Below are positions 12,486-54,058 of a DNA stretch of 64,000 nucleotides, piece after piece. Every line of letters starts with the position of its first letter. Position 1 is the first letter of the stretch. The notes under the pieces were generated by a model that was not told the DNA's origin, searched no databases, and saw nothing but the letters and a program-made list of their open reading frames with translations. Origin of the DNA: Norana najaformis (lineage: Eukaryota > Annelida > Clitellata > Crassiclitellata > Hormogastridae); NCBI GenBank assembly GCA_964023275.1, contig OZ029918.1:14826355-14890354 (forward strand), read 5' to 3'. The position numbers and the translations under genes are program-made.

Positions 12486-13069
<584 letters not shown>

Positions 13070-13880: not shown

Positions 13881-14490
13881 TAAAAACACTGGCCAACAGA
13901 AAAATTTTTTTTTCTTGTTGCCTTCGGTTTTAGACCTGTTCTTGGGGTAATTTTGGGCGCTGATTCAGAAAATGTCATTGGATTGAGTGCATCAGGTCTA
14001 GTTTCTGAGATATCGTCGATTTTGTAAAGAAAACCCAGTCCACTCTTTAAACGATGTCTTTGGCAAAACTAAAATGTCATAATAAGCTTTATTTATGGCT
14101 AATTATAATTCTTGCTGATTCATATAATGCCTACATCCTTATAATGTAAAATCAGCATATCTTGCCCGTGCTGAGATATTGCTGATTCAACGAAATAACT
14201 ATTCCGTAGCCTACAGCTTACTCAGCACTAAATTCATGGCCTCATTTAGAATTTATTTGTGCTTATACAGCGTTTCATGGTTTCGAACTATGTAAATAGA
14301 TTATGCTGAAGTCAGCATTTATAGCCTATATAAACCGCCTCCTGAAAGCTAGAGCAGCCGCAGTCGTCTTAGGGAATATTAAGAGTTGGTCGCAAGAACA
14401 ATCTGTGAATGTGAGCATTAAATAACTACATGTTCTTACTATTTTTTAGGTTAGTCATTTAATTCCTCAGATGCGAACATCCTTAAGGTT

Positions 14491-16194
14491 ATGGCTACTT
14501 CCAGACGGAGCTGCATTAACCATCCAGACATATTCTGCTACATTTGTGGGGAATACACACTAAAAGCAAACAGGAAACCGATTTCTGAGTTTGTAAAAAG
14601 AGCATATGTAGGTTATTTTGGTGTCAAACTTGGAGATCAAGATAAGCAATGGGCTCCTCATACAGTATGCAAAACTTGTATTGAACAATTGCGCCACTGG
14701 ACAATTGGAAAGAGAAGCTGCCTGAAATTTGGTGTACCGATGGTTTGGATGGAACAGATAAACCACTTCGACGACTGTTACTTTTGTATGGTTAATATCA
14801 TAGCCATCAATCGAAATAATCGTCACAAGTTGTCTTACCCTGATATACCTTCAGCCAGGAGACCTGTTCCGCATTCGGATATTGTACCAGTTCCACCTTT
14901 TCGCGAACTACCTCAGCTCTCAGACGATGAGACTTGCATGTCCAATATCGGACAAGATGACGAAAGTGAAGAAAGTGGGGGCAGTGACAGTGATTTCCAA
15001 TCAACTTCACACAGTGAACGTTTTGACCAAAAAGAGTTGAGTGATCTGATCAGGGACTTAAATCTGTCCAAAGAGTCCTCTGAATTGCTTGCGTCCAGAC
15101 TAAAGGAAAAGAATGCACTTCAGCCTGGAACGAAAATTAGAATTTATAGAAACAGAGAAAAGGATTTGCTGCCATTCTTTACCGAAGACAACAACCTAGT
15201 ATTCTGTAATGACATCAGCAACTTATTGAAGAAAATTGGTCTGTCGCATTACAGCCCAGATGAGTGGCGTCTTTTTATCGACAGTTCAAAACGTAGTCTG
15301 AAATGTGTGCTTTTAAATAACGGCAACAAATTTGGTTCTATTCCAATCGGTCACTCCACCAGGATAAAAGAAGAGTACAATGCCATCTCTTTAGTACTGG
15401 AAAAGATAAAATACAAAGAACATCAATGGGTAATTTGTGTAGACTTGAAGATGGTAAATTTCCTCCTTGGTCAACAAAGTGGCTACACAAAGTATCCCTG
15501 CTTTTTGTGTCTTTGGGACAGTAGAGCCAAGCATGAACATTGGACAAGAAAAGATTGGCCTTCGAGGAAAGACATGGTGGTTGGAGCTCAAAGTGTAATC
15601 AAGGAATCTTTGGTGGCACGAGATAGGATCATACTGCCACCACTACATATAAAGCTAGGCCTGATGAAACAATTTGTCAGGGCTTTGAATAAAGAAGGTT
15701 CATGCTTCGAATACATAGTACACAAGTTACCAGGAATTACAATGGAAAAATTGAAGGCTGGAATCTTCGATGGTCCACAGATCAGGCAACTTATGAATGA
15801 CCCACTTTTCATACCATCAATGAATGAAATCGAATCTTGTGCCTGATCTTCCTTTGTTCTTGTAACTAAAAATTTTCTTGGCAACAAGAAGGCAGACAAT
15901 TATGCACAACTAGTAGAGGATATGCTTCTTCATTTCAACAAGCTTGGCTGCAACATGAGCATTAAAGTCCATTATCTCCACAGTCACTTAGATCGCTTTC
16001 CAGAGAATCTTGGTGACTTCAGCGAAGAGCAAGGTGAAAGATTTCACCAAGACATCAAAACAATGGAAAATCGATATCAAGGAAGATGGGATGCACACAT
16101 GATGGCAGACTATTGCTGGAATATTATGCGCGATTGTTCCGGCAGATGCCACACTCGGAAATCGTACAAAAGGAGCTTCTTCGGTGTCGAATGA
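14491..16194 (+). pseudogene. Transposase-like gene of copy 1, interrupted by one in-frame TGA
   Basis: The frame opens at ATG 14491, reads 451 codons to TGA at 15844-15846, and continues in the same frame to a stop at 16192-16194, about 567 codons in all. The N-terminus has three CxxC pairs (C16/C19, C60/C63, C96/C99), a likely zinc-binding DNA-binding region, then an acidic Ser-rich linker (about 145-175). A plausible catalytic triad is D264 (RLFIDSSK), D318 (VICVDLK, followed by CFLC) and E516 (EEQGERFHQD). The D-E spacing of about 198 residues is long, as in CACTA-group transposases. The TGA sits where the other copy and the reading context suggest tryptophan. Its partner copy at 51184-52847 shares all these blocks. 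The family is widespread in invertebrate genomes in my recollection, but I cannot give it a name. Confidence 0.8.
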
Positions 16195-16393
16195 CTTGAA
16201 ATTTTTATAACAAACTTGTTCTGTTTGGTATCATATAAGTACAGTTTCAGGTACTACCATTTTCTTTTAAGTATTTGTATTATTATGTTTATTTAGTGTA
16301 TCACATAATAAATTGAGCACTACATAATTATAGCTATAGCCTTATGTTTTATGGGCGAGCAGAGGCAAGGACTGGTATATGGCATAATGTTCT

Positions 16394-16510
16394 ATATCTC
16401 GAAAACTAGACCTGCTGGGAGAAAACTGGTGCCTTTTCTGGAATCAGCAGGTCAAATATACCCAGAAACAGTTCTAACATTTGAGGCAACAAATTATGTG
16501 TTGGCCAGTG
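16394..16510 (-). repeat. Right terminal inverted repeat of copy 1
   Basis: Complement of the left arm at 13887-14013. The outer 11 bases are identical; the inner blocks GGTCTAGTTT and GAGATAT are also conserved. Confidence 0.85.
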
Positions 16511-16513
16511 AAA

Positions 16514-44850: not shown

Positions 44851-45056
44851 TTGCAAATCATTCATATAGCGCCCTTCTAAGACAAGAATTCAATCAATGC
44901 CACCCACAACCGGTTGACATTCTGTGTATTAGGATTGAGATAGATCTTAGGCTAAATTACATTATACACGTTACCTTAGCTTATCCTTAAACTGCCTTTC
45001 CATATCTTATCATAACTTACCCTACCTTACGCTGAATGTTGTAGCTCACAGCAGTG

Positions 45057-46085
45057 ATGTTGTGCTTGATTTGGTCAAAGATTTCTCAGCGGCGCCTACA
45101 AGTGTCGTCGTGCCTCGTAGCCTTCTCTTTCCTTCTGTGCCTCGTCCTTCAGTTCAAGTCCCTTCAGCGTCACTGGGTCCATCTGTCACCCTCGGTTGTT
45201 CAGCCGACCCCAGGGTACACGTCCCTCCCCCGGATCCCCATCGAATTCACGACAAACATACCACGCAATGTCTGCTCAGCTGGTTCGGACAAGACATCGG
45301 AAGACGAGGAAACCACTTCCTACGTCATTATGGTCTACACTCGCCCGGAGAACTTCGAAATTCGCCAGCTAGTACGAGAAACATGGGGGTCACGTGATCT
45401 TCTTGGTCCAATGGACATCTTGGTCCTGTTTCCAATCGGTAGGACGCTCCAGGTCAACGTGGAGGAGAGGATCAGGGCGGAAGAGGTACTTCACGGCGAC
45501 CTGATACAAGGGGACTTCATCGACGACTATCGAAACCTCAGCTACAAGGGAGTGCTGATGTTGAAGTGGTTCGTCTGGTTCTGTCCTCGTGCCAGCTTCA
45601 TTGTCAAGGTCGACGCCGATGTTTTCGTTAACGTCTACCATCTGGATCAGCTCTTGAGGGTGGAGTATGCTAGTTCGAAGCGCTTTCTTGCCTGCAAGGT
45701 CCATTGGCGTTCACGGGTGCTCCGTCCGAACGTCTGGTGTGGCAAGTGGTGCGTGCCCATCACGGACTACCGCGAGACGTTCTACCCGCCGTACTGCTGG
45801 GGGACATTCTACATCATGTCAAGAGACATGGCGGCGGAGGTACTGAGCACGAGCGAGACGGTGCCCATATGGTGGGTTGACGATGTCTACCTGACCGGCA
45901 TCATTCCACGCACTATCGGCTGGATCCAGCATGTCGTCTTTACTGAGTACTTAGAGGAAAATCCATCTCGCCTTCAAACTGTTTCTGGTAATCATATCGT
46001 CTTCGCCTTGGTACACAGCCTCAACGATTCACTCAATGCCTGGAACTCGGTAAAGAATTCTCACTGGTTGCAGCAGGACACATGA
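45057..46085 (+). CDS. GT31 family beta-1,3-galactosyltransferase-like enzyme
   Basis: A single exon of 342 codons. The start is ATG 45057; the codon just before it is GTG and is not used. It predicts a type II Golgi membrane protein: a short basic tail, a membrane segment at about residues 14-33 (VSSCLVAFSFLLCLVL), a Pro-rich stem to about 85, then the catalytic domain. Family landmarks are RQLVRETWG, the metal-binding DxD motif as VDADVFVN (D186, D188), YPPYCWGTFYIMS and VDDVYLTG (D275, D276). GT31 enzymes usually transfer Gal or GlcNAc in beta-1,3 linkage from a UDP-sugar to glycoproteins or glycolipids. The exact donor and acceptor cannot be told. The usual DDD is VDAD here and the usual EDV is DDV; the metal-binding aspartates remain, so activity is plausible. 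Length is typical. Confidence 0.88.
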   Translation: MLCLIWSKISQRRLQVSSCLVAFSFLLCLVLQFKSLQRHWVHLSPSVVQPTPGYTSLPRIPIEFTTNIPRNVCSAGSDKTSEDEETTSYVIMVYTRPENFEIRQLVRETWGSRDLLGPMDILVLFPIGRTLQVNVEERIRAEEVLHGDLIQGDFIDDYRNLSYKGVLMLKWFVWFCPRASFIVKVDADVFVNVYHLDQLLRVEYASSKRFLACKVHWRSRVLRPNVWCGKWCVPITDYRETFYPPYCWGTFYIMSRDMAAEVLSTSETVPIWWVDDVYLTGIIPRTIGWIQHVVFTEYLEENPSRLQTVSGNHIVFALVHSLNDSLNAWNSVKNSHWLQQDT

Positions 46086-49670: not shown

Positions 49671-50976
49671 ACTATAGGCTGAAAATGTTTTTAGGCTCAG
49701 GGATGTATTCTAGTTCTACTAATTAAGTCTTTAATTAGAATGCTACGCACACCTCGAACAAACTAAACAATCGTGATTTATCACCTGCACTGGTATTTTG
49801 TATAATTTTGTATTGAATTCAAACTACCTTATTTAATTTAACAAGTCTTTAGCTGCTTGTTTAGGAGTTGGTCTTTTGGTCAGACGCCCTGCGTGGGTTA
49901 TTGTCATGCGTGGGTTATTGTGCATTCCATACTGCAGCCCCCGATGGAATGAAACTACATGTTAGTCTATGTTTGAATCTCAAGTCATGTTAAAGTCACC
50001 AGTGCAGAAATATATGGCTGCAAGCGTATATGAATCGTGCCAGTACTGCCTTATTATGCACGATGTATATACGAGGTGCTCAATAATTTGACGGTGGACA
50101 ATACTCGGAAACACTCGGCTAACAATCGCACGTAAACGGGCAGAAACTTGTCTAGATATCGATTTATACGGGCGTAACAGTTAACCCTGGGAGTCACTTA
50201 ATTAGGTAAGCCAACATTATCCCTACTTGACTGTAAGACGACTTTAGGTCGACTTGAAGCCGACGACTTTGAATAAAAATAAACTGATTCGAGTTATTGA
50301 AAATCAACCAGCTTTCGACTCTAAACTGACCGGATAGCAGCACAGCAGAAAGTAAGATAGCATTAGCAGCATAGCGGCCGTATTTTGGAATAAACTAGAG
50401 GCCTACTTACTAAGCGCTAAAAATAACTGAGCAAAATTCAGATAATGCAGCAATCTGTGACTGGAAATCTATCAATCTTTATCATTAGTAAACCGAACAA
50501 AATAAACTACACAGTGTTTCACAAATTCACGTAATAAAGAACAGCAGGCCTGCCTAGCATCACTTAATATGCCTAGGCCATATGCGTCAGCAGAAATTAA
50601 CATTTCCATTATTGATTGCATTAGTGGATAATCGTGGCTTGTGAAAGCTACTATCTCTTCATGCTTTCAGCGTCAGTTCGACTTGTTTAAAAACTTTTTT
50701 TGATAATTATCATGCATTGCCAATAGGAAGCGTTTGTTCGATACGGTACCATTGAACTCCTGCTCTGGTTAATTATCAAGTACACGTTGAAGCATTGCCT
50801 CAACACGGTCGCTGATGCTAAAACTGAAAGAAAGTTCCTCACAAGAATGTTGACATGTGGGAAGTTTTGCCGCTGTGTCTTCCTGAAATGCAGTGAGTTC
50901 TCACCAGCTGTCGCATCCTCCATAAGCACATACGTGTTGTCTTCATTTTCGGTGTGCACAGCAAAACCAGGCCCGG

Positions 50977-53300
50977 TTTCACTAGACAACAAATTTTTAC
51001 AAAAGTCATGTTACTGAAATGAAATTAGTCAGTTCTTATCAATTTGTATGTGCTGAACACGAATATGACAGTGAAAATGCCGAATTGGCTCTAGTTTTTT
51101 TGTAATCTGAAATGAAGTAATTTTATATCGCACAATGCATGCCAATAGTGATACACTTACAGTTAATATTTGTAAAAACCAGGTCATAGACTAGTCCTTA
51201 GATTTTTTGCCTGTCTCTTGTACAGCTGTTCGGGAGCATCTCTGCGGAGTGTCCAGCAGTAGTCAGCCAACATTGTAGTGGACCATTTTCCCTGGTACCT
51301 TTGCTCCATTGTTGCGATATATTGATGAAAACGTTCGCCATTTTCGTCATTAACCATACCACAGTTGTCAGGGAAGAAATCCAGATGGGAATGAAGAAAA
51401 TGCATCTTCAGAGACATATTGCAGCGAAATTTCTGGTACTGCTTGAGCATGTCTTCTACTAGTTCCTTGTAGTTTTCTGCCCTAACATTCCCCATGCTTG
51501 TTTCGCATCACCCTCCAGCAAGTTGTTGAAGCGGTCATCTTTGAAGAGTTCTCTAATCTGAGGACCCACAAAAACTCCCTCTTTAATCTTTGCTTCGCTG
51601 AGTCGAGGAAATTTTTCATGCAGGTATCGGAAAGCTGGCGAAGTGCGGTCCATGGCTTTCACGAAGTTCTTCACCAAACCTAGTTTGATGTGAAGGGGTG
51701 GTAGTAGGATTTTGTGAGCCTCGACCAGAGCTGGGTGCTGGATATTCTTCTGTCCAACTGCCATGTTTTGTCTGGGAGTCCATTCCTTCCGCACGTAGTG
51801 CAACTCTCTTGCTCGGCTATCCCACTCACACAAGAAACACATATATTTTGTATATCCTTGCTGCAGTCCCATTAAAATGGCAACTACCTTCAAATCACCA
51901 CACAGGTGCCATTTGTACCCGTTATAGTCAATGGAATGCAGTAGCTGTTTTAGGTTATCGTATGTCTCTTTCATGTGGACAGCATGCGCTAATGGAATAG
52001 ATGGAAGACGGTTTCCATTGTGCAAAAGCACAGCCTTAAGACTCAGTGTTGAAGAGTCTACAAAGAATCTCCATTCTTGTGGGTCATGAGTAATCTGTAA
52101 GGCATTCATGAGGTCGTCAATATTGGAACAGAATACCAGATTACCTTCCTTCATAAAGAAAGGTTCCAACTGCTGATGGCGCTTTCTATATGAAGTAATT
52201 GTGACATCTTCTTCTAGAAGATTCCATTGTTGAAGTCTTGATCCTAGCAATTCTGCCTTGTTTTTGGATAAGTCCAAATCACGAACAAGGTCATTTAGTT
52301 CTTCCTGTGTTATTCTGTGTGGGGTTGATGATGCACCACAGTGAAAATCGGGATCACTGCACTCTGACGGACCAGGAGAAGAACATATCGGCTCACCCTT
52401 GTCCTCATCAGATGAATCAAGGAAAATATATTCTGCTGGAGGTTCTGGAATAGGAAGTCCATCACCATGTGGAACTGGTCTCAATGCTGACGGAATGTTT
52501 GGGTAGACTATTGTCGACTTCTTTTGCTTCGTTATTCCACCGGAAAGAGGAGGAACCAAGCAGAAGTAACAGTCGTCTACGTGGTTGCTTTGCTCTCTCC
52601 ACACCATGGGAACTGCAAACGGCATTGATGGTCTTTTGCCATTCAACCACTGTGAAAGCTGTGTTGTACATGTAGCACAGCATATATGCGGGGCCCATGG
52701 CTTGTCTTGGTCACCAACCTTGCATTCGAAGTAAGCATGATATGCCTTCTTGACTTGATAAGTGATACTTTTCTTCTGGTTGGCAAATGTCACTTCCCCA
52801 CAAATGTAACAAAAGTTGTCCACAGTATTTACGCACTTCCGAGGCATTACTGTTCTGTATTGTATCTAGATGGATAAAGTAATAATAGTTTTATAAAACA
52901 GTAACTTAAACTGTCTCGCACAAAGTCTGTAATATTGTAAATGCTCAACCGTTCCGACTCGCTTTATATAGTACACTGCTAACGTCATCTTACGTCAGCA
53001 GCCGACTGGCTGTAGTTTTACATTGCATCAGAAAACGACGTAATCAACTGTGCATGATGTGTCCATGATGGGATTATGCAATGAGGTGGAATATTACATC
53101 ATTCTAGACTTATTTAGGATATTGTCGCAGTCCTACTGCATAAATTTACATGGTGAAACATAAAAAATGAACTATATGAAATATTTTCAAAACGAGAGCC
53201 AATAAAAAATTTTTATGGTTATATTCGTGTTCAGCACAGCAAGATGCTACACATTAGGGCCTTTTCCAGTCAGTAACGATTTCTATGTTGACCAGTGTTT
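50977..53300 (-). mobile_element. DNA transposon copy 2, CACTAG/CACTGG ends, 3-bp duplication
   Basis: The low end starts CACTAGACAAC at 50980 and the high end finishes with GTTGACCAGTG at 53297, the complement of CACTGGTCAAC. Further in, TGTGCTGAACACGAATAT is perfectly inverted (51049-51066 and 53221-53238), followed by TTGGCTCT-GTTTT. Flanks are TTT on both sides (50977-50979, 53298-53300). Length is 2318 bp. Ends, inner blocks (compare GGCTCTAGTTT with GGTCTAGTTT) and the encoded protein show it is the same family as the copy at 13887, in opposite orientation and somewhat diverged. Confidence 0.85.
51184..52847 (-). pseudogene. Transposase-like gene of copy 2, frameshifted in the D-E linker
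   Basis: ATG at 52847 (minus strand) opens 462 codons that end at 51459. The rest of the protein continues in another frame, from about 51500 to 51184. Conserved blocks match copy 1: CxxC pairs C13/C16, C57/C60 and C93/C96; FFVDSSTLSLKAVLLHNGN; LCGDLKVVAILMG followed by MCFLCEWDSRA; ILLPPLHIKLGLVKNFV; and in the second frame MSLKMHFLHSHLDFFPDNCG and NGERFHQYIATME. At the break, about a dozen residues present in copy 1 (SSFVLVTKNFLG region) are missing, so a small out-of-frame deletion just after AKQAWG explains the shift. All three candidate catalytic acids are kept, so the break is probably recent. Confidence 0.8.
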
Positions 53301-54058
53301 CCGATAATTTGGTCTTGTGCACCAGTTTCATCATTTTGTTATTGGCTGTGAATATGCTGTTTAAGATGCGACGTTTCAATTCGATGTTGCGGATCAATTG
53401 GGCTACAACTGGTGGATGATGCTGAGCGCTGGCAGTAAGAATTGGACCAGAGCTACTTGATTATTCCGATTATTCCGATTATTCCTATGCTGGTGCCGCA
53501 AAGCTTAGTCAATAGCAGCCTTGCTATAATATTAAATAGTTGAAAAGTCGATTGAAAGTCTATATTTTGTTTATTTCATGTTACTTTACAGAAAGTTTTG
53601 GCAAAAAACTGTAAGAGTTGGTATTCGAGTATCATAACCTTTTCCTATACTTATTGCACTTTTAAAGTATTTCAGCTGTAGCATTTGTTTTATGTGATTG
53701 ACAATGGGTGGAGTTGTAATAACATAGTAATGCTGATACCGAGTGGCGTCATCGGATGATTGAACCTGCCTGTGGGTAGAGACCAGAAGAAGAAAAATGC
53801 TAATATCGTATCAGCCAGCACTTCGTGAAAGACGCCTCCTGATTTCAATCGCTTTTTATTTGCATTGCAAAGCTGACCATGTTTCATGGAAAGTAGCTGA
53901 CATTACAAAAACTTGCCCAAATATTCAACTTATACAAGCAGAAGATGCCCATTTGAGAGATTGGAAAGCAGTTGAAGGTGATCATTCAACTGTTATTCAT
54001 AGAGTCAAAGGGGTGTCTGAACTGCGGTGCTTTAAATCACGGTATCGCGTTGAGTGGC
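53301..54058. other. Non-coding region with a short open frame
   Basis: A + frame of 88 codons at 53797-54063 has no recognisable domain and no splice context. A short (CGATTATTC)n-like repeat occurs at 53459-53487. No gene is supported. Confidence 0.35.

Follow-up and report, generated by a model that had tools for sequence, protein, structure and literature searches.

Introduction

Transposons of the Chapaev3 group are described as making a 3-bp TWA target duplication with an A before it and a T after it, and Chapaev elements as having CAC..GTG ends; one of them, Garfield, carries C(2)C, LH and H(4)H motifs in a 556-residue transposase encoded by a 2289-bp element (PMC4079192; published systems are described here and below from excerpts of the cited papers). 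Here we describe a transposon from Norana najaformis which, with a probability that we put at about 0.88, is a cut-and-paste DNA transposon of the Chapaev3 type, related to the CMC and Transib groups, that has recently multiplied in its host genome. The window, by which we mean the whole stretch of DNA analysed, comprises 64,000 nt of the forward strand of contig OZ029918.1 (assembly GCA_964023275.1, positions 14,826,355–14,890,354), and all coordinates below are positions within it. An earlier, sequence-only reading of the window had proposed a complete transposon with an unnamed transposase-like gene.

RAG1 is the protein that cuts antibody genes. The signals of the RAG system have spacers of 12 and 23 bp and those of ProtoRAG spacers of 27 and 31 bp (PMC8289069). 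Transib ends are mostly symmetric, with 12/23 spacers in a few (PMC8289069, PMC8355894), and, according to a review, a few Transib families provide the only transposition known to use 12/23 asymmetry outside V(D)J recombination (PMC8355894). In the Drosophila P element, terminal repeat and inner transposase site are 9 bp apart at one end and 21 bp apart at the other (PMC7776569).

Results

Limits of the window copy

The transposon in the window (copy 1, family 1) spans positions 13887–16510 on the plus strand, a length of 2624 bp, with the same end points as in all 28 copies examined. An AAA triplet lies on either side as the target duplication (13884–13886 and 16511–16513, strandless), and the interval 13884–16513 had been correctly delimited in the sequence-only reading. 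The AAA triplets are not a fixed part of the element, since TAA, TTA and other triplets flank other copies. Both termini open with the identical 12-mer CACTGGCCAACA, perfectly inverted (left, 13887–13898, plus strand; right, 16499–16510, minus strand). The ends had been described as perfectly inverted over 11 bp; the inversion and its perfection hold, and the repeat is 12 bp long. The description of the transposon as complete holds for its DNA ends but not for its frame, which in copy 1 is interrupted by an in-frame TGA at 15844–15846 (codon 452), upstream of the catalytic E516.

Copies in the host genome and their target sites

The host assembly (608 Mb, 17 contigs) was searched for family 1, and 40 of 1280 first-look candidates were scored. 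All 40 are full length, with 99–100% identity. Twenty-eight of them, among which L004 is the window's own copy, were examined closely. Their end points are identical throughout, at lengths of 2622–2625 bp, and none of them extends beyond the proposed ends, a finding that had been named in advance as speaking against them. CAC..GTG termini are present in every one of the 28 copies; both 12-mers are perfect in 27, with one mismatch in the remaining copy (L015). The mean difference among the 20 copies of 2625 bp is 0.36%. The frame is open over 567 codons in 25 of the 28, a share that applies to these best-scoring copies and not to the family as a whole.

Of the 28 copies, 21 lie between exact 3-bp direct repeats. 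The triplets are TAA (8 copies), TTA (4), AAA (3), ATA (2), TAT (2), CAA (1) and TCA (1). TWA triplets thus account for 12 of the 21 exact duplications, a strong preference rather than a strict rule, and in 16 of the 21 the left triplet is preceded by A and the right one followed by T. The duplication of an AAA-type triplet had been predicted from copy 1: its length of 3 bp is borne out, but AAA is not the main target.

The transposase gene and its predicted fold

The transposase gene of copy 1 is a single frame at 14491–16194 on the plus strand, and the intact family-1 transposase is a protein of 567 residues encoded in one open frame. Its best match is a relative of the same length (P0002), with 96% identity over 567 residues. 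The N-terminal region contains three CxxC pairs (C16/C19, C60/C63 and C96/C99), which are those recognised in the sequence-only reading and which we infer to bind zinc. The D264/D318/E516 triad proposed there was also numbered correctly: in an alignment of 40 proteins, which includes the frame of a second window element that is cut C-terminally and ends before E516, D264 and D318 are invariant and E516 is conserved in at least 90% of the proteins. The CFLC motif seen after the second Asp corresponds to C337–C340. Together with the triad, the pairs C337/C340, L385/H386 and H494/H499 are all invariant or at least 90% conserved in the same 40 proteins, and the family-1 transposase thus contains, alongside its DDE residues, the C(2)C, LH and H(4)H motifs described for Chapaev3.

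Comparison of a structure model predicts an RNase H-like core that matches the core of Transib and RAG1; a fold without such a core had been named as a finding that would count against a transposase. The protein is accordingly best described as a predicted DDE enzyme with a HzTransib/RAG1-like fold, in which the RNase H-like core would carry a zinc insertion (C337/C340, LH at 385–386, H494/H499), and the transposase-like gene noticed within defined ends becomes a predicted DDE transposase within a DNA transposon. The comparison hardly covered residues before 175, which does not imply a new fold there, and a separate model of the N-terminal region reached a predicted local distance difference test (pLDDT) score of 38, too poor for a structure search. 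Pfam matches in this region are weak (zf-AD in 22 and RAG1_imp_bd in 2 of the 40 members, E ≤ 1). We did not accept zf-AD as the identity of the N-terminus because, where it matched the window protein and P0002, it was below the cut-off.

A second element of the same architecture

A second element (copy 2, family 2) lies at 50980–53297 on the minus strand, with AAA on both sides and the same architecture. Its transposase gene (51200–52847, minus strand; C-terminal end approximate) has a frame broken near 51495, and the encoded protein is about 48% identical to P0002. In the host genome, with P0122 as the query, all 77 scored matches, among 6583 first-look candidates, were at 99%, and 73 of the 77 scored rows have no internal stop. 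Ten family-2 copies were examined. Both ends are present in seven, which have intact frames of 563 codons and CAC..GTG termini without exception, and exact 3-bp repeats flank four of these seven. In the other three (L034, L035 and L040) the upstream end is missing, and they were therefore excluded from the paired-end counts below; they are short by 236, 305 and 66 bases, respectively, while the remainder is more than 99.7% identical to another copy. Interrupted repair is perhaps the cause of this truncation.

Seven of the 28 family-1 copies and three of the seven full-length family-2 copies are without an exact 3-bp repeat. In five of these ten (L007, L008, L020 and L021 of family 1, L038 of family 2) the TTA or TAA of the left triplet recurs at a distance of 1–3 bases from the right end, as if additional bases had been inserted there; in L007, L008 and L021 these bases are all A.

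Around copy 2, an open frame on the minus strand (50690–50979 and 53298–53459, approximate) runs on across the insertion and has a weak match to the hAT dimerisation domain (E 0.0018, below the cut-off). Copy 2 has probably inserted into a hAT gene that has since decayed or was already decaying, so that one element is nested in the other.

One short and one long end in each element

Each of the two window elements has one short end and one long end. In both elements, the short end has the 12-mer at position 1, GTTRC at 21, GCTGA at 63 and CTNGTTT at 102, and the long end has the 12-mer at 1 and the same three motifs at 31, 73 and 112; the inner blocks are thus offset by exactly 10 bp. In copy 1 the long end is upstream of the gene: an 18-bp linker (13899–13916, plus strand) leads to the left inner block (13917–14013, plus strand), with GTTGC at offset 31, GCTGA at 73, CTNGTTT at 112 and GANATAT at 121. 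At the other end, an 8-bp linker (16491–16498, minus strand) leads to the right inner block (16394–16490, minus strand), in which the same motifs have offsets of 21, 63, 102 and 111. In family 2 the long end is downstream of the gene, with the 18-bp linker of copy 2 at 50992–51009 (plus strand) and the 8-bp linker of its upstream end at 53278–53285 (minus strand).

The short linker is 8 bp in all 28 family-1 copies, and the linker pairs are 18+8 in 24 of them, 17+8 in three and 16+8 in one; all seven family-2 copies with both ends have linkers of 8 and 18 bp. Across all host loci examined, linkers of 8 bp (34 cases), 18 bp (34), 17 bp (3) and 16 bp (1) were found, and no other length between 0 and 40.

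Ungapped comparison of the ends gives the same geometry. When the two ends of copy 1 are shifted by 10 bp against each other, 71 of 111 bases match, compared to a mean of 29.9 (standard deviation 7.0) over 74 shifts, the best shift included; the conserved inner blocks of about 120 bp reported in the sequence-only reading are therefore real. In all four comparisons of unlike ends the best shift is 10 (71, 64, 47 and 49 matches per 111, against means of about 30), and in both comparisons of like ends it is 0 (47 and 46 matches per 111). These shifts of 10 and 0 were reproduced with copies from elsewhere in the genome. Similarity between the ends of one family fades past about 130 bp, and the ends of the two window elements have little in common beyond the short motifs, whose positions stay exact.

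A three-block pattern, written after inspection of the ends, occurs at exactly four places in the window, which are the four ends of the two elements, with 0 places expected from 100 shuffles. As a rough control, none of 20000 shuffles placed GTTRC, a motif picked from the same ends, within 60 bases at all four window ends. The 10-bp difference between the ends, absent from the sequence-only reading, is in our view the most interesting feature of the element. Among open-licence PMC papers, supplements not included, we found no account of unequal linkers in Chapaev.

Relatives in protein and genome collections

Protein searches gave 2094 matches for the family-1 frame (E ≤ 0.001) and 2444 for the frame of the second element. 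Names and annotations were taken from the best 120 of each set; the matches listed are annotated as uncharacterised, hypothetical or unnamed proteins, and among the organisms named, where a name is given, are Hydra, beetles, a firefly, a lizard, a frog, a lamprey and an electric eel. The sources of three close relatives (P0100, P0033 and P0155) are named as a bacterial metagenome bin, a lizard and a frog. The relative from the metagenome bin is probably contamination; horizontal transfer is possible for those named as lizard and frog.

In Pfam, the family-1 window protein has below-cut-off matches alone and the second window protein has none. The EnSpm/CACTA group has a curated transposase family of the tnp2 type; the 40 members matched 20 Pfam families at E ≤ 1 (cut-offs being known for the first member only), with no DNA transposase family among them. 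Of two sequence searches against the PDB, one gave no match and the other two weak ones (E 0.53 and 2.8). In viral contigs, one protein search gave no pattern match and another gave 28, none of them a relative; the end pattern occurs there at 0 places. Protein alignment of 32 pattern matches in GTDB genome contigs likewise gave no relative, and a tblastn search of phages and plasmids no match. In GTDB the end pattern is present at three places (L001–L003), all in records with bacterial-bin titles. The linkers there measure 16, 10 and 11 bp, the next block is absent, and protein matches nearby are weak (E of at least 0.03). We took these places as chance occurrences and kept them out of all end counts.

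Elsewhere in the window, a 343-codon open frame (45054–46085, plus strand) looks beta-1,3-galactosyltransferase-like by eye, and a long TA microsatellite (12492–12986, plus strand) gives rise to a spurious 164-codon frame with an alternating Tyr/Ile run.

Discussion

We filed the family under Chapaev3 by setting it against the published descriptions. With the Chapaev3 elements (Merrow, Garfield, Conan and the Repbase Chapaev3-n entries) it shares CAC..GTG ends, a 3-bp duplication with a preference for TWA, in most cases the A and T outside it, the C(2)C, LH and H(4)H motifs and a similar size, and its N-terminal CxxC pairs may be the counterpart of the complex zinc-finger N-terminus (Chapa domain) of Chapaev3 (PMC4079192, PMC4411706). 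The earlier description of the gene as unnamed finds no support: target type, flanking bases, termini, motifs and size fit Chapaev3 (PMC4079192). The element is a young member of an already known transposon group. It differs from the described members in having a less strict target, and the excerpted descriptions do not mention a difference of 8 versus 18 bp between the linkers.

An animal EnSpm/CACTA element, with CACTR ends and a duplication of 2–3 bp, would also have ends that begin CACTG or CACTA and a 3-bp duplication, which are compatible with both families, and C(2)C and H(3–4)H are in common as well (PMC12730594). We nevertheless consider this assignment improbable, since several traits fit the Chapaev3 descriptions: a TWA-type target flanked by A and T, the LH motif, a small gene consisting of one 567-codon frame, and an N-terminal region with CxxC pairs. 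The Pfam result also speaks against it, with the reservation that animal EnSpm elements may likewise lack a Pfam match. That the family is a separate lineage within the CMC/Transib group, standing beside Chapaev3, is very improbable: no Pfam family named for such transposases was matched and strict TWA is limited to 12 of the 21 duplications, but those described Chapaev3 traits that can be tested are present or nearly so. From Transib, represented by HzTransib, the element differs in its target duplication, which is longer in Transib. Transib duplications are, in addition, GC-biased (PMC8289069).

By analogy with its relatives, a dimer of the Chapaev3-type transposase would draw two ends together, nick at CAC, excise the element by way of a hairpin formed on the flanking DNA, and insert it with a 3-bp stagger. 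The anatomy of the ends suggests that one DNA-binding part of the enzyme would contact the outer 12-mer and a second part the inner blocks, and that a productive pair would consist of an end with an 8-bp linker and an end with an 18-bp linker, one helical turn apart, much as in RAG 12/23 pairing. The constant geometry, seen in two families, points to a possible pairing rule of the RAG-12/23 kind. We tentatively propose an ‘8/18 rule’ for Chapaev3, a proposal that remains open to considerable doubt, under which a transposase with a RAG1/Transib fold and no RAG2 partner in the element would pair an 8-bp with an 18-bp end, the geometry being kept despite the divergence of the ends and the switch of the long end from one side of the gene to the other.

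The 10-bp difference could instead be a harmless accident with no role in pairing, for instance through poly-T growth in family 1, where a T run lies inside the long linker and this linker is 1–2 bp shorter in four of the 28 copies. We think this rather unlikely, because family 2 has the 8/18 arrangement without such a T run and with its long end on the opposite side of its gene, and because every one of the four comparisons of unlike ends gives a shift of exactly 10 and both comparisons of like ends a shift of 0, without gaps over 111 bp. Unequal spacing as such has a parallel in the P element, whose two ends have been likened to the 12/23 arrangement by the authors of a review (PMC7776569). 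Unlike RAG1/RAG2 and ProtoRAG, the present element has no second gene that we could see; its inner blocks are, by eye, unrelated in sequence to the recombination signal sequences, and its linkers differ by 10 bp rather than by 11 or 4.

Since many copies are intact, the family qualifies as a candidate active transposon of animals, with an enzyme of the RAG-like type, and the presence of many intact copies with one short and one long end in a single genome makes the pairing question testable by an ordinary excision assay. With an 8/18 pair in Chapaev3, the systems with unequal ends would be joined by a group whose enzyme has a RAG1-like fold and whose element contains no RAG2 gene; if the geometry holds across Chapaev3, it would bear on the origin of the 12/23 rule. 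Should the 8/18 rule be true, an asymmetry of one helical turn would be ancient among the RAG1/Transib/Chapaev enzymes and independent of RAG2, and the 12/23 rule by which antibody genes are assembled would be one form of it.
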